The notes below the pieces were generated by a model that did no database searches, was not told the origin of the DNA, and was given only the letters and a program-made list of their open reading frames with translations. Shown in pieces: positions 43,923-62,530 of a stretch of DNA of 64,000 bases. The DNA is taken from positions 12,276,001 through 12,340,000 of the forward strand of contig NZ_CP022098.1 of the NCBI RefSeq assembly GCF_002305875.1, written 5' to 3'. A program made the translations under genes and the position numbers. Positions within the stretch are counted from its first letter, which is position 1, and each line of letters starts with the position of its first letter. The stretch is from Cystobacter fuscus (GTDB lineage: Bacteria; Myxococcota; Myxococcia; Myxococcales; Myxococcaceae).

Positions 43923-44939
43923 ATGGCGGCAGGCAAGGGCAGGCAGCGGTGGGAGGCGGGGCAGCCGGCGGTGACGATGCAGGTGCACGTGCGGCCGGGA
44001 GACGCGCGGCGCATGCTGCGCACGGAGGTGCTCGAGGGGCTGTGCGTGGAGGGGCGGCAGAAGGAGCTGTCCCCCAAGTGGCTCTACGACGAGCGCGGCA
44101 GCCAGCTCTTCGACGACATCACCCGCCTGCCCGAGTACTACCCCACGCGGCGCGAGCGGGAAATCCTCCGGGAGCACGCGCGGGACATCGCGCGCGCGTG
44201 CGCGGCCCACACGCTCGTGGAGCTGGGCAGTGGCAGCAGCGAGAAGACGCGGCTGCTGCTCGACGCGCTCCGGGAGGAGGGCGGCCTCGAGCGCTTCGTC
44301 CCCTTCGACGTGAGCGAGTCCTTCCTGCGCCAGTCGGCCGAGGCGGTGGCGCGCGACTACCCCGGGCTGCACGTGCACGCGGTGGTGGGGGACTTCGAGC
44401 GACACCTGGGGCGCTGGCCGCGCGAGGGCCGCACGCTGGTGGCCTTCCTCGGCGGCACCATCGGCAACCTCAAGCCCGCCGAGCGCGCACGCTTCTACGC
44501 CCGGCTCGCCGAGGGGATGGAGCCGGGGGACGGCCTGCTGGTGGGGACGGATCTGCTCAAGAGCCGCTCGCGGCTGTTCGCGGCGTACAACGATCGGGCG
44601 GGGGTGACGGCGGCCTTCAACCGCAACGTCCTGCGGGTGCTCAACCACGAGCTCCAGGCGGACTTCGACCCCGAGGCCTTCGAGCACCTGGCGCCCTTCG
44701 ACGAGGAGAACCAGTGGGTGGAGATGAGGCTCATCTCCACCCGGGCCCAGGCGGTGCGGCTGCCGGCGCTCGAGCGCTTCGTGAACTTCGCCGAGGGCGA
44801 GGTGCTGCGCACGGAGGTGAGCTGCAAGTTCCACCCCGCGCGGGTGGAGGAGGAGCTGGCGGCGGCGGGCCTCGAGCGCGTGGGGTACTGGACGGACGCG
44901 GCGGGAGACTTCGCCTTGTCGCTCGCACGCAAACACTGA
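43923..44939 (+). CDS. egtD: L-histidine N-alpha-methyltransferase EgtD
   Basis: A 338-residue SAM-dependent methyltransferase that makes hercynine from histidine. It has the SAM motif V-E-L-G-S-G-S-S-E-K-T-R (about residues 97-108) and F-L-G-G-T-I-G-N-L (about 176-184), both typical of EgtD. The ATG at 43923 lies five bases after egtB and has a GAGGTG site formed by the end of egtB, so the two are co-translated. Confidence 0.92.
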   Translation: MAAGKGRQRWEAGQPAVTMQVHVRPGDARRMLRTEVLEGLCVEGRQKELSPKWLYDERGSQLFDDITRLPEYYPTRREREILREHARDIARACAAHTLVELGSGSSEKTRLLLDALREEGGLERFVPFDVSESFLRQSAEAVARDYPGLHVHAVVGDFERHLGRWPREGRTLVAFLGGTIGNLKPAERARFYARLAEGMEPGDGLLVGTDLLKSRSRLFAAYNDRAGVTAAFNRNVLRVLNHELQADFDPEAFEHLAPFDEENQWVEMRLISTRAQAVRLPALERFVNFAEGEVLRTEVSCKFHPARVEEELAAAGLERVGYWTDAAGDFALSLARKH

Positions 44940-45246
44940 GCACCCGGCGCCCAAGCGCGCACCGGCCAACACTCGGCGGCCTCGGGGCGGCTGGGACCGT
45001 CCGGCGACGAACATCCGCGCCATGCGTCACGGGGGGGGAGGGCCCACGCCTACCTCCGAATGCGTCATACCTTTGCACGAACGGTCCAGCCTTTGGCGTC
45101 GCGTGGCGGCGGGCCCCAGACAGGAGCGCCAGGAGCCCACCCTCCGGGGGGGAAGGGTCGGTATCGAGGTGCATGGGGATTCATCGGGCGCCGCCCGGAG
45201 AGCATGAGGTCGCTCCCGGGAGTGGCGCCCGATGTCTGTGCGGGGG
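44940..45246. other. gene-free gap between egtD and a convergent lipoprotein gene
   Basis: No open frame shows coding bias on either strand and I see no clean hairpin. The stretch separates the plus-strand ergothioneine genes from the minus-strand partition operon and may hold weak ends for both. Confidence 0.4.
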
Positions 45247-45813
45247 CTAGCGCGGCGGGGGTTGCAGGTGGATGGCCTGGCAGGAGGAGGCCGCCTCGCG
45301 CACCTCGTCCTCGGAGACGCCGGGCAGGCTGGCGCACAGGAACAGGTCGCGCTCCACGCGCCGCGCGCCGAAGAAGGCCGGGTGGGCCTCGCCCACGCCT
45401 CCGTCCGCGAACCTCGGCGCGAGCTTCACCCGCACGAGCACGAAGTCCTCGCCCTCCTCGAGCTGCTCGTCCGAGCGCGCGAAGCCCTCGAAGGCGCGCG
45501 CGAGCAGCGCGGTGAGCGCGTCACCGGAGGGCAGCGCGTCGCCCTCGCCGGTGCGCAGATCCACGCGCAACACGGGGTGGTGGGGGGGACCGAAGCGCAG
45601 GCTGCCATCCTCCTCGGGCTGGGCGCTCCACCCGGTGGGCAGGGGAACCTTCACCCCCACCCGGCGCGAGGCCGTCCGGGGAGCCTCGGCGGACGCATCC
45701 GAGGCATCCACCGGCACCTCCGCCCGGCGCTCGCGGCAGCCCTCGCACCCCGTGCCCCCGGCGGCGAGCGCCAGCAGGGCGGCGGCGAGGCGCGGGCGCA
45801 CGGAGGCGCGCAC
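45247..45813 (-). CDS. predicted lipoprotein at end of the parAB-bacM operon
   Basis: A 188-residue exported protein with a signal ending near A-A-G-G-T-G-C (Cys about 23), followed by a second Cys pair region (E-G-C-R). The mature part has V-P-L-P-T-G-W and L-R-F-G-P segments; no family is recognised. It starts two bases after bacM ends and is likely co-transcribed with bacM, parB and possibly parA. An envelope role linked to cell shape is plausible from context only. Confidence 0.6.
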   Translation of the reverse strand: MRASVRPRLAAALLALAAGGTGCEGCRERRAEVPVDASDASAEAPRTASRRVGVKVPLPTGWSAQPEEDGSLRFGPPHHPVLRVDLRTGEGDALPSGDALTALLARAFEGFARSDEQLEEGEDFVLVRVKLAPRFADGGVGEAHPAFFGARRVERDLFLCASLPGVSEDEVREAASSCQAIHLQPPPR

Positions 45814-45815
45814 CT

Positions 45816-46277
45816 CTACTTCCGGCCCTCACCGCCGGGCGGGGGCGGGGGCGTGGAGCCCTTGGCGCCGAGGTTCTCCATCTTGCTGGAGCCCTCGAAG
45901 ATGACGCCCCGGTCCATGGTGAGCGCGGGCGTCTCGATGTTGCCCTTCACGCGCGCGGGCGCATGCAGCTCGATGAGCTGCGTGGCGCGCACGTTGCCTT
46001 CCACGGTGCCATTGATGATGACGGTGCCGGCGGTGATCTCCGCCTGGACCCGGGCGCCCTCACCCACCACGAGCACGTCCTTGGTGATGATCTGCCCGTT
46101 GAACTTGCCGTCGATGCGGACCTGCCCCTCGAAGGTGAGCTTGCCCTCGAACTCGCTGCCCTTGCCCAGCAGGGTGTGAACCTCACCCGGACGCGTCGCC
46201 ACGAAATCCTCCTTGATGCTGCCGCCCCCGAGGAGCGGAACGTTGGTCTTCTCTTCCTTCTTGCCGAGGAGCGCCAC
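45816..46277 (-). CDS. bacM: bactofilin BacM
   Basis: A 153-residue bactofilin (DUF583). The central beta-helix has repeated V/I-G-x-x-x-x-x-G strands (L-G-K-G-S-E-F-E-G-K-L, then V-R-I-D-G-K-F-N-G-Q-I, then V-I-I-N-G-T-V-E-G-N-V). It is flanked by a charged N-terminus (G-K-K-E-E-K) and a Pro-rich C-terminus. Bactofilins self-assemble into filaments, and BacM supports rod shape in Myxococcus. It starts three bases after parB ends and is therefore translated with it. The order parA-parB-bacM matches Myxococcus. Confidence 0.92.
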   Translation of the reverse strand: MALLGKKEEKTNVPLLGGGSIKEDFVATRPGEVHTLLGKGSEFEGKLTFEGQVRIDGKFNGQIITKDVLVVGEGARVQAEITAGTVIINGTVEGNVRATQLIELHAPARVKGNIETPALTMDRGVIFEGSSKMENLGAKGSTPPPPPGGEGRK

Positions 46278-46280
46278 GCG

Positions 46281-47204
46281 CTACTCCTTCCTGAGGACCT
46301 TCAGGATGCGATCCAGGTCATCGTATGAGAAGTAATCGACTTCCAGGGTGCCTTTTCCGCTGCCTTTTTCGACCAGGCGAACCTTGGTGCCGAGCCGCCG
46401 CTGCATCTCCTCCACGAGGCTCTTCACCTGGGGGCTCTGCTTCTTGGGCGCGGCGGGGGCGGACTCCTTGGCCTTGCCCCCCTTGGCCTGCTGCACGAGC
46501 TTCTCGGTGTCGCGCACGCTGAGCTTCTTGGCGGCCACCTGCGCGGCGAGCTCCTTCATCTCCGGCAGGCGCGGCACGCCGAGCAGCGCCCGGGCATGGC
46601 CCGCGCTGAGCTGCCCCGCGGCCACCAGTCCCTTCACGTCGTCGGGCAGACCGAGCAGGCGCAAGGCATTGGCCACGGTGGGCCGCTCCTTGCCCACGCG
46701 CTGGGCCACCTGGTCCTGGGTGAGGCCGAACTCCTCGACGAGCCGGTGGTAGCCCTCGGCCTCTTCCATGGGGTTGAGGTCCGAGCGCTGGAGGTTCTCC
46801 ACGAGCGCGAGCTCGAAGGCCTCCACCTCGGTGACCTCGCGCACGATGGCGGGGATTTCGTGCAGGCCCGCGGCCTGGGAGGCGCGCCAGCGGCGCTCGC
46901 CGGCGATGAGCTTGTAGCCACCCGCGCCGTCCTTGCGCACGAGCACCGGCTGCAACACGCCCTGGGCCTTGATGGACTCGGTGAGCTCGCGCAGCTTCTC
47001 CTCGTCGAACTGGCGGCGCGGCTGGAGCGTGTCGCGCTGGATGGCCTCGATGGGCAGCTTGATGAGGCCATTCTTCGGCGGGGGCGGAGGCTCGGGAGGA
47101 GCGGCCACCACGCTCGCGCCCGCGGGCACGGGTGGAGCCGCCTGGGGGATGAGGGCGGAGAGGCCGCGGCCCAACGCCCGCTTCTGCTTGTCACCATTCA
47201 GCAC
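46281..47204 (-). CDS. parB: chromosome-partition protein ParB
   Basis: A 307-residue parS-binding CTPase. The N-terminal tail R-A-L-G-R-G-L-S-A-L-I-P stimulates ParA in this family. The CTP-binding motif is G-E-R-R-W-R-A-S (about residue 100) and a helix-turn-helix (L-T-Q-D-Q-V-A-Q-R-V-G-K-E-R-P-T-V) lies near 165. The C-terminal dimer domain ends the protein. The GTG at 47204 is preferred: GGGAG lies eight bases upstream, and a strong hairpin would cover the ribosome site of the alternative GTG at 47219. The start region therefore appears to be under hairpin control. Confidence 0.92.
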   Translation of the reverse strand: MLNGDKQKRALGRGLSALIPQAAPPVPAGASVVAAPPEPPPPPKNGLIKLPIEAIQRDTLQPRRQFDEEKLRELTESIKAQGVLQPVLVRKDGAGGYKLIAGERRWRASQAAGLHEIPAIVREVTEVEAFELALVENLQRSDLNPMEEAEGYHRLVEEFGLTQDQVAQRVGKERPTVANALRLLGLPDDVKGLVAAGQLSAGHARALLGVPRLPEMKELAAQVAAKKLSVRDTEKLVQQAKGGKAKESAPAAPKKQSPQVKSLVEEMQRRLGTKVRLVEKGSGKGTLEVDYFSYDDLDRILKVLRKE

Positions 47205-47218
47205 TGCGAGAACTCCCA

Positions 47219-47257
47219 CCGGGCCTTCCCGGCCATTGCCAGTCCGGGAAGGCCCGG
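47219..47257 (-). promoter_or_regulatory. 14-base-pair hairpin at the parB start
   Basis: CCGGGCCTTCCCGG (47219-47232) pairs perfectly with CCGGGAAGGCCCGG (47244-47257) around an 11-base loop, directly upstream of the parB GTG at 47204. It could act as a terminator or attenuator between parA and parB, or shape parB translation. Both would set the ParA:ParB ratio. Confidence 0.6.
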
Positions 47258-47431
47258 ACGGCCAGGTCCTTGGAGTGTCACCGCGGGGAACCTGGACGAC
47301 CCCGCGGGCGGTGCGCGACAGGCGGGCCCCCAGGGGGCTCTCGCACGGCGAACCGATCCACCACTTCAGCGGCCCGCTTCCCCCGCGCCGCCCGACATGA
47401 CTCGGGGACGCGGGGTGGGGGCCGGGGGCGC

Positions 47432-48223
47432 TCAAGCCCGGGGCTGGACGGGAGGCGGCGCGGGCTCGCGCTGCATGATCTCCCGGCCGAGCGCGAGGTA
47501 GCTCTCGCAGCCCTTGGACTTGATGTCATAGAGGATGATGGGCTTGCCGAAGGAGGGGCACTCGGCGAGGCGCACGTTGCGCGGCACCACGGAGGAGAAG
47601 ACCTGCTCCTTGAAGAAGCCGCGCACGTCGTCCACCACCTGGTTGGCGATGTTGGCGCGCGAGTCGAACATGGTGAGGAGGATCCCCTCCATCTTCAGCT
47701 CCGGGTTGAAGGCCTGGCGCACCAGATCGATGGTGTGGTTGAGCTGGGACAGGCCCTCGAGCGCGTAGTACTCGCACTGCAGGGGGATGAGGACCGAGTC
47801 GGCGGCGATGAGCGAGTTGAGCGTGAGCAGGCCGAGCGACGGCGGGCAGTCGATGAGGATGTAGTCGTACTGGTCGGCGAGCGGGCGGAGCGCGTCGCGC
47901 AGGCGGAACTCGCGCCGCTCCTGGCCCACGAGCTCGACCTCGGCGCCGGTGAGGTCCGGGGTGGCGGGGACCACCTGGAGGTAGCGCAGCTCGGTGGAGT
48001 GGAGCAGCTCGCTCATGGGGCGGCCGCCGAGCAGGGCGTCATAGACGGTGCCCTGGAGCTGCTCGCGCTTGAGTCCGAGCCCGCTGCCGGCATTGCCCTG
48101 GGGATCCATGTCGACCAGGAGCGTCTTGCGCTCGGCCGAGGCGAGGCTGGCGGCGAGATTGATGGCGGTGGTCGTCTTGCCGACGCCGCCCTTCTGGTTG
48201 GAGATGCAGATGATTCGACCCAC
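47432..48223 (-). CDS. parA: chromosome-partition ATPase ParA
   Basis: A 263-residue Soj/ParA-type ATPase with the deviant Walker [11 protein letters not shown] (about residues 10-19), the D-M-D-P-Q-G-N motif, and I-D-C-P-P-S-L-G. It binds DNA non-specifically in its ATP form and drives segregation of ParB-parS complexes. The GTG at 48223 has AAGGA about nine bases upstream. Longer frames run into the parS array and are not used. It lies directly beside the parS cluster. Confidence 0.93.
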
Positions 48224-48403
48224 GTGGCCCGTCCTTGGGGAAAGCCTGTAGCGACGCCATTGATCCATCAAACCGGGAGCTGATCCAGTCCACGGCCAGA
48301 TCAACCTCTAACCCGCCCGCCTGACATGCTTCCGGGCCCGGCCGGACCCCGCGGAGGGCGGAGGAGGCGGTCCCCGGAGGTCCAGAGCCGGACCCGGGGA
48401 GAG

Positions 48404-49569
48404 GTTTCACGTGGAACACCCGGGCGCCTTCTCGGATGCCCGTTCCACGTGGAACACGGCGGGCGAGGGGTTCCGTTCCCGTGGGCCCCGTGGACCCGAG
48501 ACGTCCGGTGGAACTCCGCATCGGCCGGGCTCCGGGAAACACCGCGCCCGGACCGGACTGGAGACGCGGAACGGAGGGAGGGACCGGGGATGTGCCGGGG
48601 ACGTGGCGGCGTGAAGTTCCACGTGGAACGGGGGCACGGGATCGAGCGCGGCCCGCGCACCCGCGGAAAGAACCCCTGCCCCACCCGAGGGCCTCCAGCC
48701 CGGCGCTCCGGGAAGAAGGGTTCGGACGTTCCACCTCACGAAGAAGGCTCCGGCTGTTCCACGTGGAACACGGAAGAAGCACCTCACGGAAGGTTCCACG
48801 TGGAACACGGTGGAGCGGCTCCCCCACCCATCTCCGCCAGCGCGGAGTCCATCGGTCCGGCGCTCCGGCCGTTCCACGTGGAACAGGGGCCCACGCATCA
48901 ACGCCCATCCCGCCCCCTGAACTCCGCCCCTTCCGGTTCCTGGTTCCAACCCCGGAAAGGTGCGGGACGTTCCACGTGGAACATGGGACTCGTGTCCGAA
49001 CCCCTCCTTCTTTCCGCCCCTCCGCCATCCCGTCCGGCCACGGTTCCGCCGCCGGAAGGAGGGGGGAGACGTTCCACGTGGAACGTGGTGAAGCACCTCC
49101 CTCACCTGTCTCCGCAAGCGCGGAGTCCACCGGTCCGGTGCTCCCGCCGTTCCACGTGGAACACGAGCCCCGTGCATCAACCCCCTTCCCGCCCCCGCGT
49201 CCCTCCCGCCTTCCCGTCCAGACCCCGGCCGCCGGAAAGGTGTTGGGGACGTTCCACGTGGAACGTGATGTCCGAACCAGGAGAAGGATGTCCCCCTCTT
49301 CTGGGCCCGCTGGAGGATGGAGGCGGTAGCGTCCCCTCCCCTTTCGGAGTTGGGGCGGCCGAACCGCGAGGGACTCCGCCGGGGAGCGGGGACAGGTCCA
49401 CGTTCCACGTGGAACACGCCCGGGAGCAGTGCCGGGTCCGGGAGGTTCCCAGAAGGTGCGGCGGGAGGTCGGGGCGGAGTGCGGCTCCCGCTGGGGCTCA
49501 GGCAGGAATGGACACTGCATCGGTGCATCCAGTCCGCGGCACGGAGCGAGGCAGCGTTCCACGTGGAAC
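48404..49569. repeat. parS cluster (12 ParB-binding sites)
   Basis: Eleven perfect copies of GTTCCACGTGGAAC start at 48442, 48616, 48756, 48793, 48871, 48969, 49071, 49149, 49251, 49402 and 49556. A twelfth with one mismatch (GTTTCACGTGGAAC) is at 48404. Spacing is 37-174 bases. This 16-base-class palindrome is the parS sequence bound by ParB in many bacteria, including Myxococcus. ParB should load here and spread, and the ParA-driven origin segregation should act on this region. No genes are credible inside the array: long open frames there only repeat the site as peptide. Confidence 0.97.
48793..49264 (+). repeat. ~280-base tandem duplication inside the parS cluster
   Basis: The three-site block starting at 48793 (sites 48793, 48871, 48969) is repeated at 49071, 49149 and 49251, offset by 278-282 bases. 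The spacers are clearly related as well, for example the GCGGAGTCC stretch before sites 48871 and 49149. The copies have diverged in spacers but not in the sites. Confidence 0.8.
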
Positions 49570-49655
49570 ACCAGCGTCGGCGCTCGTCAGACCCATCCGA
49601 TAGTTCCCCGGTCCGGCTGCCCACGCATGGGTAGTCCTCGTCCCGGGAGTTCCTC

Positions 49656-50321
49656 ATGAGGCCAGGTTGGACCGTGGTGTCCCTGCTGCTCCTCGCCGGG
49701 TGTGGTTCCACCAACGGCGCGAGCAGTTCGTTCGAACCGAAGCGCACGCCCGCACCGGGTGCCAGGCCCGCCGTGAAGAAGGAGCTGCCCTGGTTGAGCG
49801 TACCGGGCGGGCGGATGCGGACGACCCTCTTCTACGGACCCTGGCAGTGCCGCCAGGAGTTCATGAACGACTGCCAGGTGCAGTGCGCCCTCGAAGGTCG
49901 TGCGCTCAAGGGCTGCATGTGGCTGGCCGACCTCAAGTTCGACTGGGAGGGCCACCTCATCCTCCTGCCCGTTCCCGTCGAGGGCGGGAGCCGCTACGGC
50001 ATCTATCACTGCTGCTGCGACTACCCCTCGTTGTCGACCCAGGAGACCACGAGCCGCCGTAGGGAGTGGGAGCGGATCCGGAAGTCCTTTCGTCAGAGCT
50101 GGAGCGAGAAGTTCGGGGCCTGGCCCAGCAGTGGCAATAAGGCCTGGCCGGGGCACCACATCCGGGATCTCTGGCACAGCGGAGACCCCGTGGATCCCAA
50201 CAACGTCTTTCCCGCCCAGCCGGACGTTCACGACCTCTACAACCGGGCGTACCCCACCTGCTACGCGGGGCAAGCTCCCTGGAATACAACCGGGCCCGAC
50301 GTGCCCTACACCGACCATTGA
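49656..50321 (+). CDS. SitA-like lipoprotein toxin with HNH/GHH-type nuclease tail
   Basis: A 221-residue lipoprotein with a clear lipobox (L-L-L-A-G-C, Cys16). The middle is Cys-rich (W-Q-C-R-Q-E-F, N-D-C-Q-V-Q-C, then H-C-C-C-D-Y), consistent with the TIGR02269 myxobacterial lipoprotein family. The C-terminus has a P-G-H-H-I-R-D-L-W segment followed by D-P-V-D-P-N-N-V-F-P and a downstream His (D-V-H-D), the pattern of a His-Me finger nuclease of the GHH/WHH toxin class. The ATG has a GGAG site. The SUKH immunity gene overlaps the stop by four bases (ATGA). It lies between the parS cluster and rsmG. Confidence 0.8.
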   Translation: MRPGWTVVSLLLLAGCGSTNGASSSFEPKRTPAPGARPAVKKELPWLSVPGGRMRTTLFYGPWQCRQEFMNDCQVQCALEGRALKGCMWLADLKFDWEGHLILLPVPVEGGSRYGIYHCCCDYPSLSTQETTSRRREWERIRKSFRQSWSEKFGAWPSSGNKAWPGHHIRDLWHSGDPVDPNNVFPAQPDVHDLYNRAYPTCYAGQAPWNTTGPDVPYTDH

Positions 50322-50797
50322 CGATGACCACGCCCATGAGCCGCCTGCTGGCGGAAATCTCCCGCGACCACTTTCCGTACGCGCCCGCCACGCCCGAGGC
50401 GATCGCGGCGTTCGAGCATCGAGTGGGCTGGAAGTTGGATCCGGACCTGCGCGCCTTCTACCTGCACTGCGATGGCGCCGAATTGATCGAACGGCTCCCC
50501 GACTCGCCCTATCAGATACTTCCTCTCGCGGACATCGTCCGGGCCCGGGTGGCCATCTACGGCGAGGATGACGATCAGTGGGGTCCCGCCTCGGTGTACG
50601 CCCTGTGCGATGTGCAGGACGGCAACTACGTGCTGGTGGACGTGGCCCGTCAGGAGGACGGGCGCTACCCCCTCATCGACGGCTACCACGAGGCCTGGCC
50701 CGATCCGAAGTACTGCTCCCAGGTCGCCCGCTCCTTCTCGGAGTTCCTCGAGCAGGTCCTGCGCACCCGGCGCAACCTCTACTGGCTGGGCGAATGA
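50318..50797 (+). CDS. SUKH (SMI1/KNR4) family immunity protein
   Basis: A 159-residue SMI1/KNR4-type protein: helix P-E-A-I-A-A-F-E-H-R-V-G-W-K-L-D-P-D-L-R, then F-Y-L-H-C-D-G-A-E-L, then a strand region with I-L-P-L-A-D-I and a C-terminal S-F-S-E-F-L-E-Q helix. SUKH proteins commonly neutralise nuclease toxins. It overlaps the toxin gene by ATGA and is the expected antidote. A strong two-way hairpin follows. Confidence 0.88.
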   Translation: MTMTTPMSRLLAEISRDHFPYAPATPEAIAAFEHRVGWKLDPDLRAFYLHCDGAELIERLPDSPYQILPLADIVRARVAIYGEDDDQWGPASVYALCDVQDGNYVLVDVARQEDGRYPLIDGYHEAWPDPKYCSQVARSFSEFLEQVLRTRRNLYWLGE

Positions 50798-50809
50798 CTC
50801 CCCGGACAT

Positions 50810-50850
50810 GACGAGGGCCGGAGCCCTTCCCTCGGACCCCGGCCCTCGTC
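50810..50850. terminator. bidirectional terminator-like hairpin
   Basis: A perfect 12-base stem, GACGAGGGCCGG (50810-50821) with CCGGCCCTCGTC (50839-50850) and a 17-base loop, between the convergent immunity gene and rsmG. It should end transcripts from both sides. Confidence 0.75.
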
Positions 50851-50888
50851 GTCGCTTCCGTCTGTCTCGCGCCCCCGCGCGCCCTCCC

Positions 50889-51554
50889 CTACTCCGCCCG
50901 CTTCTTGAACGCCGCCACCTGCCGCTCGGCCTGCGAGAACGGCAGCCGGTAGGCCCGCGCCGACACCAACTCCAGTCCCCGCTTCCCCGCCTCCTCCCGC
51001 AGCGCCTCCTCCCCGAGCGCCTTGCCCAGCATCGCCACCACGTGCCCCCCAGGTGCCAGGTACGCCGGCGCCAGGTCCAACCAGTCCGGCAGATCCATGA
51101 ATGCCCGCGCCAGCACCCGCTCCGCTCGAGGCAACCCCTCCGCCTCGGGTCGGCCCTCCGCGCGCGTGTGCACCGCCTTCGTCCCCCCAAGCCCCAACCC
51201 CGGCACCGCCACCACCGCCTTGAGGTAGCCCACCTTCTTGCCCACCGCATCCACCATCGTCACCGACAAGCCCGCCCGCGCCATCTTCAACGGCAGCCCC
51301 GGGAAGCCCGCCCCCGCTCCCACGTCCAGCACGCTCGTGGCCCCCTCCACCTCCGGCAACACCGCCAGCGAGTCCAGGAAGTGTTTCTCCAACACCTCCT
51401 CCGGCGCGGTGATCGCCGTCAGGTTCACCTTCGCGTTCCACTTGAGCAGCTCGCCCATCAGCCGGTACAGCCGCTCGGGCACGTCCTCCCCCACGCCCAC
51501 ACCCAACGCCTCACACCCCCGCCGCAGTTGATCGGCGAAGCGAGAATTGTCCAC
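50889..51554 (-). CDS. rsmG: 16S rRNA (G527) N7-methyltransferase RsmG
   Basis: A 221-residue class I methyltransferase that modifies G527 of 16S rRNA. It has the SAM loop L-D-V-G-A-G-A-G-F-P-G (about residues 73-83), an acidic end of strand two (V-D-A-V-G-K-K), and an R-A-F-M-D-L-P region. It follows mnmG by 110 bases in the same orientation, the conserved origin-proximal order mnmG-rsmG-par. Confidence 0.93.
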   Translation of the reverse strand: MDNSRFADQLRRGCEALGVGVGEDVPERLYRLMGELLKWNAKVNLTAITAPEEVLEKHFLDSLAVLPEVEGATSVLDVGAGAGFPGLPLKMARAGLSVTMVDAVGKKVGYLKAVVAVPGLGLGGTKAVHTRAEGRPEAEGLPRAERVLARAFMDLPDWLDLAPAYLAPGGHVVAMLGKALGEEALREEAGKRGLELVSARAYRLPFSQAERQVAAFKKRAE

Positions 51555-51664
51555 AGCCCACCCTCCCTCTCCGGGGCCTCAACCCCTCGAAATGACTGCA
51601 CTCGGGGCCCTCCTCGGAGTTCCCCACACGTTGTCCACACCCCCCTGTGCGATCAGACGCCCCT

Positions 51665-53518
51665 TCAGACACCTCTTCGGGCGCCCTCGCCAAGCCCCTC
51701 GCGCTTGAGCGCCACCAGCAACAGCGAAATCGCCGCCGGCGTCAGCCCCGGCACCCGCCTCGCCTGCCCCACCGTGCCCGGCCGGTGCTTCTCCAGCTTC
51801 TCCACCGCCTCGGCCGACAAGCCCCTCACCCCCCCATACGCGAAGTCCGCCGGAATCCTCCACCCGTCCCACGCCTCCGCCTCCCGCGCCGCCGCCCGCT
51901 CCGCCATCACGATGTAGCCCTCGTACTTCACCTCCACCTCCACCTCCTCCACCACGTCCGCCGCCAGCTCGGGCCACCCCTCCCCCGCTCCCTCCGCCAG
52001 GCTCGCGTACGTCACCTCCGGCCGCTTGAGTCGCGCCGCCAGCCCCGTGCGCTTGAGCCGCTCCACCTCCCCACGCACCGCGCGCTCCCGCGCCTCCACC
52101 CGCTCGGCCAGCTCGCGCCCGACCAGCCCCACCCGCGCCCCGTACCGCACGAGCCTCAGGTCCGCGTTCCCCTCGCGCAGCCGCAGCCGGTGCTCCGAGC
52201 GGCTCGTGAACATCCGGAAGGGCTCGTCCACCCCGCGCGTCACCAGCTCGTCCACCAGCACCGCCCCGTGCGCCTCGTGCCGCCCCAGCTCCAGCGCCGG
52301 CTCGCCCTTCACCTTCAGCCCCGCTTGAATCCCCGCGTACAACCCCTGGAAGGCCGCCTCCTCATAGCCGCTCGTGCCGTTGAGCTGCCCCGCGAAGTAC
52401 AGGCCCTCCACCCGCTTCGTCTCCAGCGTCCCGTGCAACTGCGTGGGCGGCGCGTAGTCGTACTCCACCGCGTAGCCATAGCGCGCCACCTCCACCCGCC
52501 CGAGCCCCGGCAGCGTGCGCAGGAAGTCGAGCTGCACGTCCGCGGGCAGGCTCGTGCTCAGCCCCGCCGGGTACACCAGCGGCGAGTCGGGCCCCTCGGG
52601 CTCGAGGAACACCAGGTGCCGCTCGCGCGCGGAGAAGCGCACCACCTTGTCCTCCAGCGACGGGCAGTAGCGCGGCCCCCGGCCGACGATCTCTCCCTGG
52701 TACAGCGGCGAGCGGTGCAGGTTGTCGCGCAGAATCTGGTGCGTCTCGGGCGTGGTGTACGTGAGCGCGCACGTGACGGCGGGCTGGCACGGAAACCCCG
52801 CGCCCTCCCCGCCCAGCTCCCGCGCCCACTTCGTGCGCAGGGAGAGCGGACGCGGGGGGAAGTCGCCGGGCTGGGGCTCGAGCGCGGCCCAGTCGATGCT
52901 GTCGCGCACCAGCCGCGCCGGGGTGCCCGTCTTGAAGCGGCCGAGCGTGAAGCCCAGCGCGCGCAGCGAGTCGGACAGGCCACGCGCCGCCTCGTCCCCG
53001 AGCCGTCCGCCCACCTCCTTCTTCTCGCCCACGTGCATGAGCGCCTGGAGGAAGGTGCCGGTGGTGAGCAGCACCGCGCGCGCCGCCACCTGCGTGCCGT
53101 CCCCGAGCACCACGCCCGCCACGCGTCCGCCCTCGGCCACCACCTGGGACACCTCGGCCTCGTGCACCGTGAGGCCCGGCTGGCCGAAGAGCACCGCCTG
53201 CATGGCCCGGGCGTAGGCGTCGCGGTCGCACAGCACGCGCGTGGCCTGCACCGCCGGGCCCTTGGAGGCATTGAGCGTCTTGAAGTGCGTGCCGGTGAGG
53301 TCCGCCACCCGGCCCATCTCCCCGCCGAGCGCGTCCAGCTCGCGCACCAGGTGGCCCTTGGCCGTGCCACCCACCGCCGGGTTGCAGCTCATCACCGCGG
53401 CGCGCTCGCGCTTGAGCGTGAGGGCGAGCGTGGACAGGCCCATGCGCGCGCACGCGAGCGCCGCCTCGCTGCCCGCGTGCCCCAGCCCCACCACGATGAC
53501 GTCGTATGCCTGCTTCAT
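51665..53518 (-). CDS. mnmG: tRNA uridine-34 modification enzyme MnmG (GidA)
   Basis: A 617-residue FAD enzyme that, with MnmE, installs carboxymethylaminomethyl groups on wobble uridine. The N-terminus has the dinucleotide fold V-V-G-L-G-H-A-G-S-E-A-A. The family motifs C-N-P-A-V-G-G-T-A-K-G-H and A-G-Q-L-N-G-T-S-G-Y-E-E-A follow. Length matches the family. The ATG at 53518 starts M-K-Q-A-Y-D-V-I-V-V. Confidence 0.96.
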   Translation of the reverse strand: MKQAYDVIVVGLGHAGSEAALACARMGLSTLALTLKRERAAVMSCNPAVGGTAKGHLVRELDALGGEMGRVADLTGTHFKTLNASKGPAVQATRVLCDRDAYARAMQAVLFGQPGLTVHEAEVSQVVAEGGRVAGVVLGDGTQVAARAVLLTTGTFLQALMHVGEKKEVGGRLGDEAARGLSDSLRALGFTLGRFKTGTPARLVRDSIDWAALEPQPGDFPPRPLSLRTKWARELGGEGAGFPCQPAVTCALTYTTPETHQILRDNLHRSPLYQGEIVGRGPRYCPSLEDKVVRFSARERHLVFLEPEGPDSPLVYPAGLSTSLPADVQLDFLRTLPGLGRVEVARYGYAVEYDYAPPTQLHGTLETKRVEGLYFAGQLNGTSGYEEAAFQGLYAGIQAGLKVKGEPALELGRHEAHGAVLVDELVTRGVDEPFRMFTSRSEHRLRLREGNADLRLVRYGARVGLVGRELAERVEARERAVRGEVERLKRTGLAARLKRPEVTYASLAEGAGEGWPELAADVVEEVEVEVKYEGYIVMAERAAAREAEAWDGWRIPADFAYGGVRGLSAEAVEKLEKHRPGTVGQARRVPGLTPAAISLLLVALKREGLGEGARRGV

Positions 53519-53620
53519 GCCGCTATCTCACGCGCCCGCCCTCCGAAGGCAAGAGGCCCCCTCCCCTCGCTGGCCCGCCCCCCGCTCCCGCCCCCTCGGC
53601 ACGAAGCCACGGGCCCGGAT

Positions 53621-53663
53621 GATTTTCCTCCACCTCTCCAGGCGCCATCGGCTATCCCGCCCG
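53621..53663 (+). promoter_or_regulatory. conserved upstream element, copy 1
   Basis: This 43-base block is repeated upstream of the next gene (54258-54300), both starting GATTTT and containing CCATCGGCTATCCC. In both cases the element ends exactly 78 bases before the start codon. This suggests a shared promoter or operator carried along with the gene duplication. Confidence 0.6.
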
Positions 53664-53740
53664 GGCCCTCGGACCGGGAGTCCGGGGACAACACCTCGCG
53701 GCGCGCGCTCGCGCGACCGCTCCTCCTGGAGATGAACCCC

Positions 53741-54130
53741 ATGAACAACAAGTGGATTGTGTGTCTGGCCCTCGCGCTCACCGGCTGCGGCGGCAGCGGC
53801 CTCGGCGGCACGTGGAAGGGCGAGGCCGCCGGCTGGTCCGTGACCGTGGTGCTCGACGAGGCCACCGAGCAGAGCGGGACGAGCTACTTCACGGGCACCG
53901 TGAGCAGCAACAAGCCGGCCTGCTTCACCAACGGCACCGCGGCGGCCACGCTCGTCAGCGGCAAGACCGCGCAGATCCTGTCCAACTCCTCGGGCTCCGC
54001 CGCCAATACGACCGTCGTGGACATCTCCGGGGAGCTGTCCGGCAACACGCTCGTCGGCTACTTCGAGGCGACCAGCACCGCCTCGGAGTGCGACACGGCT
54101 CGCACCGCCATCACGCTCACGCGCCAGTAA
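53741..54130 (+). CDS. small lipoprotein, tandem paralogue 1
   Basis: A 129-residue lipoprotein with a lipobox Cys near residue 13 (A-L-T-G-C). The mature part has a G-T-W-K-G-E-A-A-G-W-S-V-T-V strand, K-P-A-C-F-T-N-G-T-A and a C-terminal C-D-T-A-R-T-A-I-T-L-T-R-Q. The next gene encodes a clear paralogue. The start at 53741 is chosen over 53732 because the shared upstream element then lies at the same distance as in the paralogue. Function is unknown. Confidence 0.7.
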   Translation: MNNKWIVCLALALTGCGGSGLGGTWKGEAAGWSVTVVLDEATEQSGTSYFTGTVSSNKPACFTNGTAAATLVSGKTAQILSNSSGSAANTTVVDISGELSGNTLVGYFEATSTASECDTARTAITLTRQ

Positions 54131-54142
54131 CCCGAGTCCCGC

Positions 54143-54185
54143 AGGCGGCTCCTGGCTTCCCGACCCCTCGCGCCGGGAGCCGCCT
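54143..54185 (+). terminator. hairpin after lipoprotein 1
   Basis: AGGCGGCTCC pairs with GGAGCCGCCT across a 23-base loop, starting 13 bases past the stop. Confidence 0.5.
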
Positions 54186-54257
54186 CGGCCCCCCCCTCCA
54201 GCGGCCCCCTCCTCACTCCCCGTCCGTCCCCCGAGGTCTCGCCAACTGTTCAGTGGA

Positions 54258-54300
54258 GATTTTTCTCCACCGACCCAGGTTCCATCGGCTATCCCACCGG
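54258..54300 (+). promoter_or_regulatory. conserved upstream element, copy 2
   Basis: Second copy of the element at 53621-53663, again ending 78 bases before the start codon of the downstream paralogue. Both copies contain CCATCGGCTATCCC. Confidence 0.6.
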
Positions 54301-54377
54301 AACACCTTGGCCGCGGGCCCGGGTGCAGCACCTCGCGGCCGGGCGCGTAACCTGCTTCTCACTGGAGAGGACTCATC

Positions 54378-54818
54378 ATGAAGAACTGGATTCTGTGTGT
54401 CGCCCTCGTCGTCGCCGGCTGCAACGCATGCGGTGGTGACGACGGTGGTGGCGGCGGTGGCGGCGGCGGCGGTGGTGGTGGCGGCGGCACCAACGCCTAC
54501 CTCGGCACGTGGAAGGGCGAGGTCTCCGGCTGGTCGGTGAGCCTGGTGATCAAGGAGGCCACCGAGCTGAACGGCGTGACCTTCGTCACGGGCACGGCCA
54601 GCACCAACAAGGCCTCCTGCTTCAGCACCGGCGACCTGAGCGGCAACTTCAACCCCACCTCGGGCGCGACCCTCACCGCCGTCAGCAACGACGGCAACAC
54701 GCAGATCAACGTCCTGGGCCCCGTGGCCAACGGCAAGATCACCGCCAAGGTCGAGGCGCAGGGCGAAACCGCCGACTGCACCTTCCAGAGCCTCTCCACC
54801 ACGTTCACCCGTCAGTAG
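54378..54818 (+). CDS. small lipoprotein, tandem paralogue 2, with poly-Gly linker
   Basis: A 146-residue lipoprotein related to the previous gene throughout (G-T-W-K-G-E-V-S-G-W-S-V-S-L, K-A-S-C-F-S-T-G-D-L, C-terminal T-F-T-R-Q). It differs in a run of 15 Gly just after the lipid-anchored Cys, probably a flexible tether from the membrane. The gene and its promoter-like element look tandemly duplicated. Function is unknown. Confidence 0.75.
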   Translation: MKNWILCVALVVAGCNACGGDDGGGGGGGGGGGGGGGTNAYLGTWKGEVSGWSVSLVIKEATELNGVTFVTGTASTNKASCFSTGDLSGNFNPTSGATLTAVSNDGNTQINVLGPVANGKITAKVEAQGETADCTFQSLSTTFTRQ

Positions 54819-55009
54819 CCTCCCCCCCGGGGCCCGGCGTCTCCGGGCCCGGGTGGACCCGGCGCCTCCCCCCCGTTCCACAGAGAGCGGAGGGAGGACA
54901 CGCGGCCCTCTCGGCGCAGCGCGCGGAAGAAGGCGCGCACGTCCTCGAGGAAGAGTCCCCTCCGGCGCGTGGGCCCTGGAGCCCCGAGCCCCAGGGCCCG
55001 GCGATTCAC
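54812..55009 (-). CDS. possible small protein coupled to the M16 gene
   Basis: A 65-residue minus-strand frame whose GTG overlaps the M16 protease stop (GTGA), with GC-saturated third positions and a protein-like centre (G-L-F-L-E-D-V-R-A-F-F-R-A-L-R-R-E). Its end runs through the hairpin of the convergent lipoprotein gene. It could be a real coupled small gene; no family is recognised. Confidence 0.4.
   Translation of the reverse strand: MNRRALGLGAPGPTRRRGLFLEDVRAFFRALRREGRVSSLRSLWNGGEAPGPPGPGDAGPRGGGY
54830..54850. terminator. hairpin after lipoprotein 2
   Basis: GGGCCCGG pairs with CCGGGCCC around a 5-base loop, 12 bases past the stop of the second lipoprotein gene. Confidence 0.55.
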
Positions 55010-57792
55010 GGCGCGGCCGGAGCCGTGACGGGCGCCGGGGCGGCCTTCTTCTTCGCGCCCTCGAAGTCGCCCGCCTTCACCACCGTCACCTGCTTCCAGT
55101 CGAGCACCCGCGCGAGCGCCGCGCGCACGTCCTCGGGCTTGAGCGCGCTCATGCGCTTCTCGAACGCGGCGTCGTAGGCGAGCGTGCGGTCGTAGTACAG
55201 GTACGAGGCGAGCGTGCGCGCCAGGCCCGAGTCATCCGCGCGGCCCGTGCGCCGGTACTCCAGGAGCCCCGCGCGCGCCTGCTCCAGCTCCTGCGCGCTG
55301 AAGCCCTTCTGCAGCACCTTCTCCACCTCCTCGCGCATGGCCGTCTCCAGCCGCTCGGCGTTCTGCGGCGCGTAGATGGCGAACGTGGAGAACATGCCCA
55401 CGGGGTCCAACGCCCCCGCGTTGAGCGAGCTGCTCACCGAATAGGACAGGCCGTCCTTCTGGCGCACGCGCGTGGCCAGGCGCGAGTTGAGGAAGCCGCC
55501 GCCGAGCAGGAAGTTGCCGAGCACCAGCGCCGGGTAGTCCGGCGAGTCATCGCGCAGCGCGAGCCCCTCGCCCGCGAAGAAGAGGGCGTTGGCCTTGTCC
55601 GGCGTCTCCACCACGAGCGCCTGGGCACCCGCCTTGTAGGGCCGCGACGGCACGCGCTCGTAGGGCGCGGGGCTCTTCCAGCCGCCGAAGAGCTCGGCCA
55701 CCTGCGTCTTGAGGGCCTCGGCGTCGAAGTCACCCACCGCGGAGAGCTCGCCATTCGAGGCGCCGTAGAAGTCGCGGTGGAAGGCGCGCGCCTGCTCGAG
55801 CGTGGTGCCCTTGGCCTCGGCGAGCGACTCCTCGTAGGTGCTCACGTAGTAGGGGTGGCCCGAGGGGTAGGGCGAGAGCGCGCGAGCGAAGGCGAGGCGG
55901 CCCTGGTAGGCGGGCTCGCTGCGCTGGTTCTCCAGGGAGGCGAGCCGCTCCTGCTGCGCGAGGGCGAACTCCTGGGCGTCGAAGGCCGGCTCGCGCAGCA
56001 TCTCCGCCACGAGCTTCATCACCTCGGGAAGGCTCGCACGGGGCGCCTCCACCGAGACACCGGCGCTGGTGAGCGAGCCCGACACGGACACCCGGGCCTT
56101 GAGCTTGTCGAGCGCGTCGCGCATTTCCTGGCGGGTGTGCTTCGTGGTGCCGCGCATGAGCAGCACGCCGGCGTATTCCGCCGCGCCCGAGCGGCCGGTG
56201 AGCGCCTTCTCCGTGCCCCAGCGCAGCGACATGGCCACGCTCACCATCTCCCCGCGCGTCTTCTTGGGCAGCAGCGCCAGCTCGAGGCCCCCCACCTGGG
56301 AGCGCGTGACGCGCTTCTCGATGTTGTCCGGCGACGGATCGAACGCCTCGCCCTGGGCGACGGCGGCGCGGCCCTGGTAGCCCTGGAGCATGCCGGCCAC
56401 GTCCACGCGCGGGGGCAGCTCGGCGCGGTCCGGCCGGGCGGTGGGGAGGAACTCGCCGAGCGTGCGGTTGGAGGACTTGAGGTACTCGGCCGCCACGCGC
56501 GTGACGTCCGCGGGGGTGACGGCCTCGATGCGATCGCGGTGCAGGAAGAACAAGCGCCAGTCGCCGATGGCGGCCCACTCGGACAGCTCGATGGCGGCCC
56601 CTTCCGAGTCGTTGAGCGTCAGCTCCACCTGCTTGAGCAGGGCCGTCTTGGCGCGGCCCACCTCCTCGTCGGTGAAGGGCGTGCGCGCGGCGTCCTCGAC
56701 GGTGGTGAGCAGCGCCTCGCGCGCGGCGTCGAGCGACTGGCCGTCGCGCACGGTGGCGCGGAAGGTGAGCACGCCCGGGTCGTGCAACTGCAGGCTGTAG
56801 CCGCCGGCGCTCGCGGCCTTCTTCGTCTCCACGAGCGCCTTGTACAGACGGCCCGAGGGCGTCATGCCGAGCGAGAGGGAGAGCACGTCGATGGCGGCGA
56901 AGTCGGGGTGGGCCCCTTCGGGCACGTGGTAGACGGTGGTGAGGGCGCTCACGTCGCCCACGCGGCGCAGGGTGACGCGGCGCTCGCCGTCCTGCACGGG
57001 CTCCTCGGTGTAGGTGACGGGCAGGGGCTGCTTGGGGGCCTTGAGGCGGCCGAAGGTCTTCTTCACCTCGGCGAGCGCCTGGGCGGGCTCGAAGCGGCCG
57101 GCGAGCACCAGCATGGCGTTATCCGGCCGGTAGTACTTCTTGTAGAAGGCCTGGAGCCTGTCGATGGGCACGTGCTCCAGGTCGGCGCGAGCGCCGATGG
57201 TGGACTTGCCGTAGTTGTGCCAGAGGTAGGCGGCGCTCATGACGCGCTGGCCGAGCACGCGACTGGGTTCGTTCTCGCCGCGCTCCAGCTCGTTGCGCAC
57301 CACGGTCATCTCGGTGTCGAGGTCCTTCTTGGCGATGAAGCTGTTGACCATGCGGTCGGCCTCGAAGGAGAGCGCCCAGCGCAGGTTGTCGTCCGAGGCG
57401 GGGAAGGTCTCGAAGTAGTTGGTGCGATCGAGCCAGGTGGTGCCATTGGGGCGGGCGCCGCGCTGGGTGAGGGCCTGGGGCACGTTGGGAGTGGTGGGGG
57501 TGCCCTTGAACAGGAGATGCTCGAGCAGGTGGGCCATGCCCGTCTCGCCATAGCCCTCGTGCCGCGAGCCGACGAAGTAGGTGATGTTGAGGGTGACGGT
57601 GGACTTGGTGGGGTCCGGGAAGAGCAGGACGCGCAAGCCATTGTCGAGCCGGTATTCGGAGATGCCCTCGACACTGGTGAAGGGAGCGGGGAGGGTGGCA
57701 GTCGCCGGTGTGGCGGGCGCCTTGGCGAGCGCGGGAGCGGAGACGAGCAACAAGCCCAGGCCGAGCAGGCGCAGGCGGGAGGGGAGGGACAT
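55006..57792 (-). CDS. exported M16 family zinc protease (two-domain)
   Basis: A 928-residue exported protease with a signal peptide (cleavage likely after A-P-A-L-A). The first M16 domain has the inverted zinc motif H-L-L-E-H-L-L-F (about residues 80-87) with a downstream Glu in V-V-R-N-E-L-E-R-G-E. A second M16-like half without the zinc motif follows, as in pitrilysin-type enzymes and their fused partners. It probably degrades peptides in the periplasm or outside the cell. The ATG at 57792 gives the signal peptide; the longer opening does not. Confidence 0.9.
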   Translation of the reverse strand: MSLPSRLRLLGLGLLLVSAPALAKAPATPATATLPAPFTSVEGISEYRLDNGLRVLLFPDPTKSTVTLNITYFVGSRHEGYGETGMAHLLEHLLFKGTPTTPNVPQALTQRGARPNGTTWLDRTNYFETFPASDDNLRWALSFEADRMVNSFIAKKDLDTEMTVVRNELERGENEPSRVLGQRVMSAAYLWHNYGKSTIGARADLEHVPIDRLQAFYKKYYRPDNAMLVLAGRFEPAQALAEVKKTFGRLKAPKQPLPVTYTEEPVQDGERRVTLRRVGDVSALTTVYHVPEGAHPDFAAIDVLSLSLGMTPSGRLYKALVETKKAASAGGYSLQLHDPGVLTFRATVRDGQSLDAAREALLTTVEDAARTPFTDEEVGRAKTALLKQVELTLNDSEGAAIELSEWAAIGDWRLFFLHRDRIEAVTPADVTRVAAEYLKSSNRTLGEFLPTARPDRAELPPRVDVAGMLQGYQGRAAVAQGEAFDPSPDNIEKRVTRSQVGGLELALLPKKTRGEMVSVAMSLRWGTEKALTGRSGAAEYAGVLLMRGTTKHTRQEMRDALDKLKARVSVSGSLTSAGVSVEAPRASLPEVMKLVAEMLREPAFDAQEFALAQQERLASLENQRSEPAYQGRLAFARALSPYPSGHPYYVSTYEESLAEAKGTTLEQARAFHRDFYGASNGELSAVGDFDAEALKTQVAELFGGWKSPAPYERVPSRPYKAGAQALVVETPDKANALFFAGEGLALRDDSPDYPALVLGNFLLGGGFLNSRLATRVRQKDGLSYSVSSSLNAGALDPVGMFSTFAIYAPQNAERLETAMREEVEKVLQKGFSAQELEQARAGLLEYRRTGRADDSGLARTLASYLYYDRTLAYDAAFEKRMSALKPEDVRAALARVLDWKQVTVVKAGDFEGAKKKAAPAPVTAPAAP

Positions 57793-57909
57793 GCGGGAAG
57801 CCTCGAAGCGCGAGGGGTGGGCCAGATGGCGTCTGGAAGCTACCAACCAGACGGGGCCCGAGGGTGTTCCCGAGAAGAAAAGGGGAGGGGGAATGCGGCG
57901 GGGGCTCTG

Positions 57910-57942
57910 GCTTGACTCACCCCGCTTGAACGTTTCCAGTCC
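57910..57942 (+). promoter_or_regulatory. promoter-like element shared with the SitA-like gene at the right edge
   Basis: GCTTGACTC, then CAGTCC 27 bases downstream, occurs here and again at 62436-62468 with identical spacing. TTGACT fits a -35 box. In both places a copy of the same lipoprotein N-terminus follows, so promoter and 5' coding sequence were copied together. Confidence 0.5.
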
Positions 57943-57947
57943 GGGGG

Positions 57948-58123
57948 ATGAAGCCGCACCGCGCGTGGGGAGGCTGGCCGCTGCTCGTCCTCTGCCTCGA
58001 GTCCGCGTGCGTCACCTCCCCGCGAGGGCGCGTCGTGCCCGCAGCTTCGCCCGACCGCGCGCCGACCATCGAGTCCACCCTGGACGTCCTGGAGCCGGGC
58101 GCCGTCCCTCCGCGTCCGGTGCC
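57948..58123 (+). pseudogene. truncated 5' end of a SitA-like toxin gene
   Basis: The frame starting M-K-P-H-R-A-W-G-G-W encodes a lipoprotein signal (L-E-S-A-C) and P-T-I-E-S-T-L-D-V-L-E-P-G-A-V. It closely matches the first ~60 residues of the SitA-like gene at 62531. Similarity stops abruptly at a CCGGTGCC sequence at 58116-58123, beyond which the frame runs only to a stop at 58188-58190. This is a broken 5' end created by recombination or deletion. It now lies directly upstream of a different small toxin-like gene. Confidence 0.85.
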
Positions 58124-58321
58124 AGTTGCAGGGACTTTGTTCACGCGCGGTTCGGGGAGCGTTTTGTCCGCGACGCTCACCGCGACGTGACTGAGCACGA
58201 GCCAACCAACGCCAAAGCGGCGAGTACTCCGGCTGACACATCAGAGGCGGGGCTCCTTTTGCGAATGATTCCAGTGGGTATGACGAGGTTGGCCGTTGGT
58301 CCAGGCTCCTCGGGGGTCGCC

Positions 58322-58651
58322 ATGCAACAAGCCCGTGTTGTCGGTCGCGGTCAACCGTGCCGCCCGGTATGGCTCGTTCTGGCATTTGGGTGTTTATCAA
58401 CGAGCGCCGCTGGGGACGGTGGCAGCATCGCGCTCACTCAGGCCGAGTGCAACCCGACCGACAGCACCGTCACCTGTTGTCTCAAGCAGAACCCAGGCCA
58501 ATACGATCGGTGTGGTGCAACACCTCCGACCGAGGCCACGCGCCCCAACAATCTCCTGAAGGAAACGCAGTGTAAAGCCTGTTACGAGGCATGTATGCGT
58601 CACGGGTTCTGGCCGTGGCAAGCCAACGACAAGCCCTGTCCTGGAGCCTGA
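58322..58651 (+). CDS. Cys-rich small lipoprotein, candidate toxin
   Basis: A 109-residue predicted lipoprotein with a signal ending L-A-F-G-C (Cys about 24). The mature part has a dense Cys pattern (A-E-C-N-P-T-D, T-C-C-L-K-Q-N-P-G-Q-Y-D-R-C-G, Q-C-K-A-C-Y-E-A-C-M-R-H-G), suggestive of a disulphide-rich toxin tail. The ATG at 58322 follows a GGGGG site and is preferred over earlier in-frame ATGs because it gives the lipoprotein signal. The next gene starts two bases after its stop. It may be the C-terminal part of a larger toxin that lost its original N-terminal half, since a broken SitA N-terminus lies just upstream. Confidence 0.5.
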   Translation: MQQARVVGRGQPCRPVWLVLAFGCLSTSAAGDGGSIALTQAECNPTDSTVTCCLKQNPGQYDRCGATPPTEATRPNNLLKETQCKACYEACMRHGFWPWQANDKPCPGA

Positions 58652-58653
58652 TC

Positions 58654-59139: not shown

Positions 59140-59256
59140 CGTGATCGACGACGGCGCCGAACCGGACCACAAACCCCGGCCCTTCATCGGCGACCCGCTC
59201 CGAGGAACACGAGTTCGGAGGTCATGCTACGCTCCAGCACCTCGGAGGTGGTTCTC

Positions 59257-61311: not shown

Positions 61312-61411
61312 AGGCCAGCCGAATGGCCAGTACCATCACCGGGCTCAGTCATCACGGAGCCCGGAGACGTGATAGAGGCGGACACCGTCTCTGCTTTGGA
61401 GTCTTCTCCCC

Positions 61412-62347: not shown

Positions 62348-62435
62348 TGCGAGCCCTGGTGGGCCTTGCCTGACGCTCCCTCGCCGCACCGAGCTACCAG
62401 CAGCGCGCGGCGAACACGGCGAGCAACGGTCGGTT

Positions 62436-62468
62436 GCTTGACTCTCCTTGTCTGACCGTCTTCAGTCC
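62436..62468 (+). promoter_or_regulatory. promoter-like element upstream of the SitA-like gene
   Basis: Matches 57910-57942: GCTTGACTC followed 27 bases later by CAGTCC. Likely promoter of the SitA-like gene at 62531. Confidence 0.5.
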
Positions 62469-62530
62469 GTGCGATGCAGCGGAAACGCGCCGTGTCTACC
62501 CGTCGTCTCGTGAACCCACGTCCGCGGGGA

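Follow-up and report, generated by a model that had tools for sequence, protein, structure and literature searches.

How a bacterial centromere region expands, and why the number of parS sites varies, is a question posed in PMC5815017 and PMC7333895, where the clustering of sites is explained by new sites being tolerated only near old ones. Chromosomal parS sets are ParB-bound palindromes, often several near the origin, and up to 20–23 have been counted there in Streptomyces coelicolor and Listeria innocua (PMC7333895). The question is raised in concrete form by Cystobacter fuscus, in which a 64,000-nucleotide stretch of the chromosome (termed the window) carries twelve closely spaced palindromes immediately upstream of parA.

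Sites and genes of the parS array

The palindromes were located in the window and in the whole genome. Between 48404 and 49569 there are eleven perfect copies of GTTCCACGTGGAAC and one variant, GTTTCACGTGGAAC, making 12 sites over 1.17 kb, the same count as had been made from the letters alone. The variant (site 1, 48404–48417; sites and spacers are given without strand) lies closest to parA, and the same variant occupies the matching place in two congeners, G032 and G033. The perfect sites follow at 48442–48455 (site 2, 38 bp from site 1), 48616–48629 (site 3), 48756–48769 (site 4), 48793–48806 (site 5, which opens the unit echoed at 49071), 48871–48884 (site 6), 48969–48982 (site 7), 49071–49084 (site 8), 49149–49162 (site 9), 49251–49264 (site 10), 49402–49415 (site 11) and 49556–49569 (site 12, the last in the array). 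The genome, a single contig of 12,349,744 bp, contains exactly 11 perfect copies, all inside the array, and the only other copy with one mismatch among the matches listed was at 8271603. A reversed-pattern control gave 0 copies genome-wide at 0 mismatches.

The gene order at the locus is mnmG-rsmG-array-parA-parB-bactofilin, and the array occupies the gap between the minus-strand parA and a gene on the plus strand that starts at 49656. The parA gene (47432–48223, minus strand; AAA_31, 1.6e-65) has a probable GTG start at 48223, read by eye, and the listed open reading frame opens with TTG at 48304; the array begins ~180 bp from the probable start. The parB gene (46281–47435, minus strand), whose start within its open reading frame is uncertain, encodes ParB_N, HTH_ParB and ParB_C domains, scored above the cut-off of TIGR00180 and matched chain 7bnk_A with 326 bits. 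The best solved-chain matches of its product were 7bnk, 7o0n and 7bnr, titled ‘ParB family protein’, which we take to be M. xanthus proteins. Downstream of parB is a bactofilin gene (45816–46277, minus strand; PF04519, 3.2e-30) in the position of bacM, the M. xanthus operon being parA-parB-bacM. Rfam at its gathering threshold gave zero matches across 44000–64000.

Between rsmG and the array, the region 49656–50797 on the plus strand encodes a predicted lipoprotein of 221 amino acids followed by an SMI1/KNR4 (SUKH-1) protein, a couple that looks like a toxin–immunity type pair. The lipoprotein had zero matches in Pfam (E up to 0.001) or NCBIfam (E up to 0.01), and tblastn recovered it only from G032 (in part) and G033 among 66 fetched stretches.

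The general parS consensus is a 16-bp palindrome, TGTTTCACGTGAAACA. Nine of the 12 sites were within three mismatches of this consensus (0.05 expected in the window), the other three missing that limit because of their outer bases, and 11 of the 12 agree in every base with the 14-bp core of the consensus published for M. xanthus parS. A DnaA domain is encoded at 434–919 of the contig and the array lies at 12324404–12325569 of 12349744 bp, a distance of ~24.6 kb with the contig assumed to be circular. The locus combines parS-type palindromes, adjacent parA and parB, and proximity to the origin, as a ParABS centromere does. Sequence, position beside parA and parB, and the published M. xanthus consensus together support the assignment of the sites as parS. 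In M. xanthus, ParB binds consensus parS in vitro (abstract of PMC3899335; PMC3778016, in part), and a gel shift was carried out with a 3.12-kb probe bearing 22 sites (PMC3899335, in part); by analogy with that species and other bacteria, ParB would be expected to bind and load at the array in C. fuscus.

The flanks of 987 perfect sites from 67 arrays were also inspected, and the site looks wider than 14 bp. Seven genera provided at least 20 half-sites; in these the base at −1 is a pyrimidine in 82–100% of cases, and C is in excess at −3 in five of the seven (not in g5, hardly in g8).

It could be that the palindromes serve a different regulator, for instance a Noc-like protein or a parAB repressor, and not a centromere. 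The array does lie upstream of parA, and the Noc model TIGR04285 gave 240 bits on the window ParB against 190 for parB_part. Those 240 bits are, however, below the TIGR04285 cut-off of 315 for the Noc/NBS nucleoid occlusion family, whereas parB_part (TIGR00180) was above its own cut-off of 58. In addition, the site corresponds to the core of the parS consensus known from M. xanthus, to which ParB binds in vitro (PMC3778016, in part), and all of the 116 genomes searched in the class carried GTTYCACGTGRAAC. Another regulator is thus considered extremely unlikely, and the array is treated below as a ParABS centromere.

The M. xanthus cluster, for which 22 (Iniesta 2014) or 24 (Harms et al. 2013) sites have been given, has the same palindrome, the same parA-parB-bactofilin operon and the same compact arrangement upstream of parA near ori. 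It differs in being a 3-kb cluster ~4 kb upstream of parA, where the window has 12 sites over 1.17 kb at ~180 bp from the probable parA start. In the text consulted, no description of the M. xanthus cluster as tandem duplicates was found, and the word ‘tandem’ occurs 0 times in PMC3899335.

Tandem duplication within the window

The sequence-only reading had proposed that the cluster was expanded by a ~280-base tandem duplication, in which three sites recur at a constant offset of 278–282. The offsets are indeed 278 (48793 to 49071), 278 (48871 to 49149) and 282 (48969 to 49251). The spacers were then compared using 300 dinucleotide-preserving shuffles per pair. Spacer A1 (64 bp, 48807–48870) is a paralogue of A2 (64 bp, 49085–49148), which repeats it at an offset of 278 with 52 of 64 positions identical (z = 11.4; score 92 against a shuffle maximum of 50). 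Spacer B1 (84 bp, 48885–48968) is likewise copied in B3 (88 bp, 49163–49250), with 64 of 90 columns in agreement (z = 6.9; score 88 against a shuffle maximum of 56). The intervening spacer B2 (88 bp, 48983–49070) is related both to B1 (z = 4.25) and to B3 (62 of 93 columns, z = 4.8).

Because B2 is itself kin to the ~100-bp monomer represented by B1 and B3, the structure reads A1-B1-B2, then A2-B3 with a short stub, which takes two duplication steps or more to explain. The ~100-bp monomer is thus present in three copies and a 78-bp monomer in two, and the arrangement in the window goes no further than A-B-B then A-B. The proposed ~280-base duplication is accordingly real, but it was one step of several and not a single clean event. 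Tandem Repeats Finder (TRF) at score 50 reported zero repeats in the window array, and this blank is put down to drift of the copies. Lone half-sites (GTTCCAC, GTGGAAC) were noted in the spacers at 48728–48734 and 48508–48514 (P = 0.02 over 200 shuffles); they are possible remnants of lost sites.

The G+C content of 48500–49499 is 0.69–0.71, and GC-rich spacers might resemble each other by chance, the sites then being independent in origin. The earlier reading had itself named local base composition as the test of its proposal. A purely compositional echo is refuted by the z scores of 11.4 and 6.9 over dinucleotide shuffles and is further opposed by the presence of the monomers in G032 and G033 beside the same genes; we regard it as almost certainly wrong.

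Comparison with these two congeners places the duplications in order. From mnmG to parA the modules of the window read e f B3 A2 B2 B1 A1 c h i j. By spacer matches, G032 has f, three B-type monomers and one A, and G033 has e and three B-type monomers, with no A among the best matches of any spacer; modules i and j, beside parA, are common to all three. B1 and B2 are each 81% identical to a G033 spacer (its fifth and third, respectively), and B3 is 85% identical to the fourth spacer of G032. Since the B-type triplet occurs in all three species, it is older than their split, while the second A copy was seen only in the window among the genomes fetched. DNA identity between the window and G032 or G033 is 94–99% in the flanking genes, 78–83% in spacers e, f and i (>100 bp) and 88–92% in the short spacers c and j. 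A1 and A2 are 81% identical to each other, and 87% and 82% identical, respectively, to the A of G032. The A1–A2 value falls among those of the single-copy orthologous spacers (78–83%), so the A-B duplication and the separation from the congeners are of roughly equal age. The alignment also sets the intact site at 49251 against a decayed G032 site, GTTCCAGATGGAAC, with two mismatches. In G034, labelled as belonging to the same genus, no shared spacer was recognisable.

Arrays across the family and class

Perfect sites were found in 85 of 96 family genomes, at 0 to 35 per genome, and 33 genomes of the order and class outside the family carried 1 to 6 copies of GTTYCACGTGRAAC. The variant count was 1 or 2 in 13 genomes of at least 90% completeness. 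The loci of 66 relatives were fetched, and the gaps proved to follow lineage-specific periods: 77–82 bp in several g19 arrays, 104–106 in several g6 arrays, mostly 70–75 in G039, 37–38 in G040 and ~136 in G055.

Higher-order repeats were seen in some of these arrays. In G072 a trimer gap pattern of 81-78-77 is repeated, TRF reported 236 bp × 5.9 and 708 bp × 2.0, and spacers three apart exceeded 0.8 identity in 6 of 36 pairs, against 0 of 37 for neighbours. In G015, TRF reported 238 bp × 3.2 at 99% identity, which is a very recent expansion. TRF was run on 66 of the 67 arrays, one with fewer than three clustered sites being left out; it reported some repeat in 46 of the 66 and none in the window array and 19 others. 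Repeats with a period of at least 25 that span at least two sites were present in 42 of the 66, comprising 26 of 27 g19 arrays and 16 of 39 elsewhere (among them g6 7/16, g3 2/6, g7 2/7, g1 2/4).

Spacers of 30–400 bp (n = 1024, from 65 arrays) were next surveyed for paralogues. A within-genome paralogue was found for 406 of the 1024, of which 332 are in g19, and only 2 of 1024 shuffled spacers gave any match. At least one within-genome paralogue was present in 46 of the 59 arrays with at least four spacers; 13 of the 59 had none, including G034, G007, G017, G020 and G075. Within genomes, 1228 matches were direct and 7 inverted (pairs counted from both sides). The site is palindromic, so that module orientation should not matter for binding, and this head-to-tail bias therefore points to tandem copying. 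The suggestion that tandem duplication is how a parS cluster can grow thus holds for the window and extends to the family, where such growth is widespread, not universal, and contributes most of its signal from genus g19.

Spacer homology is lost between genera: the survey yielded one cross-genus match. For arrays of at least eight sites and rsmG of at least 550 bp, the mean fraction of recognisable spacers in common was 0.76 at an rsmG DNA identity of at least 0.97, 0.41 at 0.95–0.97, 0.10 at 0.93–0.95, 0.01 at 0.91–0.93 and ~0 below, figures that mix drift and rearrangement. Two individual comparisons may be noted. The loci of G020 and G029 (L178 and L187) are 97.4% identical in rsmG and have 8% of their parS spacers recognisably in common, a near-complete array change between close species. 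The loci of G035–G038 (L161–L164) have 3–5 sites in 138–254 bp, and G039 and G041, labelled as the same genus, have 15–16 exact sites; the small arrays represent contraction or lack of expansion.

Helical phasing of the gaps was considered and rejected as a result. Among the 709 gaps no longer than 250 bp, with a given length taken once per array, the Rayleigh p was 0.16–0.46 for periods of 10.0–10.6 and 0.047 at 11.0. When the gaps no longer than 66 bp were deduplicated by genus (n = 67), a weak preference emerged (p = 0.0055 at 10.5 bp against jittered gaps), which was weak within the family (R = 0.19, n = 54) and stronger outside it (R = 0.77, n = 13; the 13 values come from five genera and 19 of the 33 outside genomes, in the range G097–G128). 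The best-fitting period overall was 12.1, so phasing is only a lead. Close parS pairs outside the family favour spacings of ~37–40, 46–48 and 57–59 bp, roughly half-integral helical turns.

Selection on sites and growth of the array

Conservation of the sites was assessed by masking all sites, aligning the 50-bp flanks within the same array or with that of a congener, and then reading the 14 bases. The identical procedure centred on spacer midpoints provided control 14-mers. From g19, 120 of the 702 ordered species pairs were used, and from the other genera all 326 same-genus pairs. Alignments were discarded if they lacked significance, had fewer than 20 aligned bases a side or had fewer than 40 informative columns. 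At flank identities below 0.85, the target site was perfect in 175 of 277 cases within genomes and in 411 of 582 between species, while the control 14-mers were identical in 8 of 228 and 5 of 448, respectively. Sites were above the neutral expectation in every within-genome bin below 0.95 and in every between-species bin. At within-genome flank identities of at least 0.95 there was no excess (34 of 47, where 0.755 was expected; 39 of 70 in the control). Cases with a shifted register were counted as lost, and the test of site retention is therefore conservative. Per-base change in the sites is estimated from these counts at about a tenth of the spacer rate.

Since the sites are mostly perfect at diverged flanks and identical control 14-mers are rare, the sites are selected and the spacers turn over like satellite DNA. 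The claim that spacers had drifted while selection kept the sites after expansion is hence upheld, with the qualification that sites decay at times. At flank identities below 0.85, 29–37% of compared positions were not perfect, in part through misalignment and in part through real decay; the number of sites is thus not strictly maintained. A survey of all 1081 spacers of the 67 arrays recovered 63 two-mismatch sites, where 10 shuffles averaged 0.3, and 76 three-mismatch sites, where the shuffles gave 4.8. Site retention together with remnants of lost sites indicates an array in which birth and death take place and purifying selection acts on the sites.

One direct repeat of an array can convert another, and gene conversion between copies might rewrite sites in a way that mimics selection. 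Conversion would, however, spread the spacers too, and these diverge to 70–80% identity with most sites perfect; moreover, the same site is kept across genera whose spacers have no recognisable homology. We consider gene conversion a very unlikely source of the pattern.

A different explanation is that array size is a by-product of random slippage, the number being effectively neutral, with selection only against arrays that are too low and single sites mattering little. The exact counts of 0 to 35 in the family and 3 to 16 within genus g7 are in keeping with this, as are the frequent decayed sites and the wide differences between tree neighbours (28 in G059 and 16 in G066, on a FastTree tree with uneven gene coverage). 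Against it, individual sites are kept far beyond the neutral expectation in all the within-genome bins below 0.95 and all the between-species bins, and their per-base rate is estimated at about a tenth of that of the spacers. Effectively neutral array size is, in our judgement, possible but doubtful.

We hold it very probable that the array is a chromosomal ParABS centromere that grew stepwise by head-to-tail duplication of site plus spacer, the spacers then mutating rapidly and the sites being preserved by purifying selection. In such systems CTP-dependent ParB clamps are loaded at parS and slide away from it, and ParA moves the complex. At this array, a ParB dimer would close on each 14-bp palindrome as a CTP-dependent clamp and slide from parS onto neighbouring DNA, and ParA would move the ParB-loaded region; many close sites would then offer many ParB loading points. 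The ~100-bp monomer would have been copied to a triplet before the split from the two congeners, and a larger unit with monomers A and B would have been duplicated around when the species separated, giving the 278-bp echo. Fast mutation of the spacers would have followed, with the sites maintained by purifying selection. The copying process was presumably recombination or replication slippage, for which the parS sites may have served as shared homology.

Junctions between modules were also examined. Of 37 novel single-copy junctions, 18 had a pair of spacers that map onto a single spacer, as expected from gain or loss of a site, and the remaining 19 were deletion-like. Both edges were precise (12 bp, at least 0.75 identity) in 10 of the 19 deletion-like junctions, cases that are not independent; the same was true of 222 of 308 conserved junctions, but of 0 of 4000 edge pairs taken at random. 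A search of low detection power (4 of 29 built chimeras recovered) yielded two chimeric spacers. Note that rearrangements breaking exactly at sites are not claimed, given the power of 4 in 29.

Two other kinds of centromere invite comparison. Plasmid iteron-type centromeres are also tandem arrays of partition-protein sites; their iterons are shorter and more regular and are bound by different centromere-binding proteins, whereas modules of the window type carry fast-evolving spacers of ~20 to >150 bp. The eukaryotic centromeric satellites of animals and plants consist of tandem monomers in higher-order repeats, with fast turnover and a short conserved protein-binding box, and at the sequence level the likeness extends to all of these features, the higher-order repeats being present in some of the myxobacterial arrays. 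There is no kinship between the two, and the myxobacterial arrays measure kilobases, not megabases. The M. xanthus cluster, the binding of ParB and the wide variation of parS numbers were already known, as was this kind of element, a ParABS parS cluster; what is new is a satellite-like mode of centromere evolution. No report of tandem growth of chromosomal parS clusters was present among the matches listed from the open-licence literature, as judged by titles and abstract openings.

One interpretation of these data, towards which we lean, is that myxobacterial centromeres evolve as satellite DNA. Monomers and higher-order repeats would come, spread and vanish within a genus, the spacers would be nearly free, and only the ParB loading site of ~14–16 bp would be selected; parS may itself supply the homology for gain and loss of modules, which would make the array self-expanding. 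The arrays provide a concrete copying route for centromere growth, and intermediate states of it are preserved among relatives. That few sites can suffice is shown by the 13 genomes, each at least 90% complete, in which the variant count is 1 or 2. With a family range of 0–35 exact sites and this copying route, it becomes directly testable how parS number affects segregation. Centromere turnover under selection likewise becomes testable in a bacterium, an organism without meiosis.
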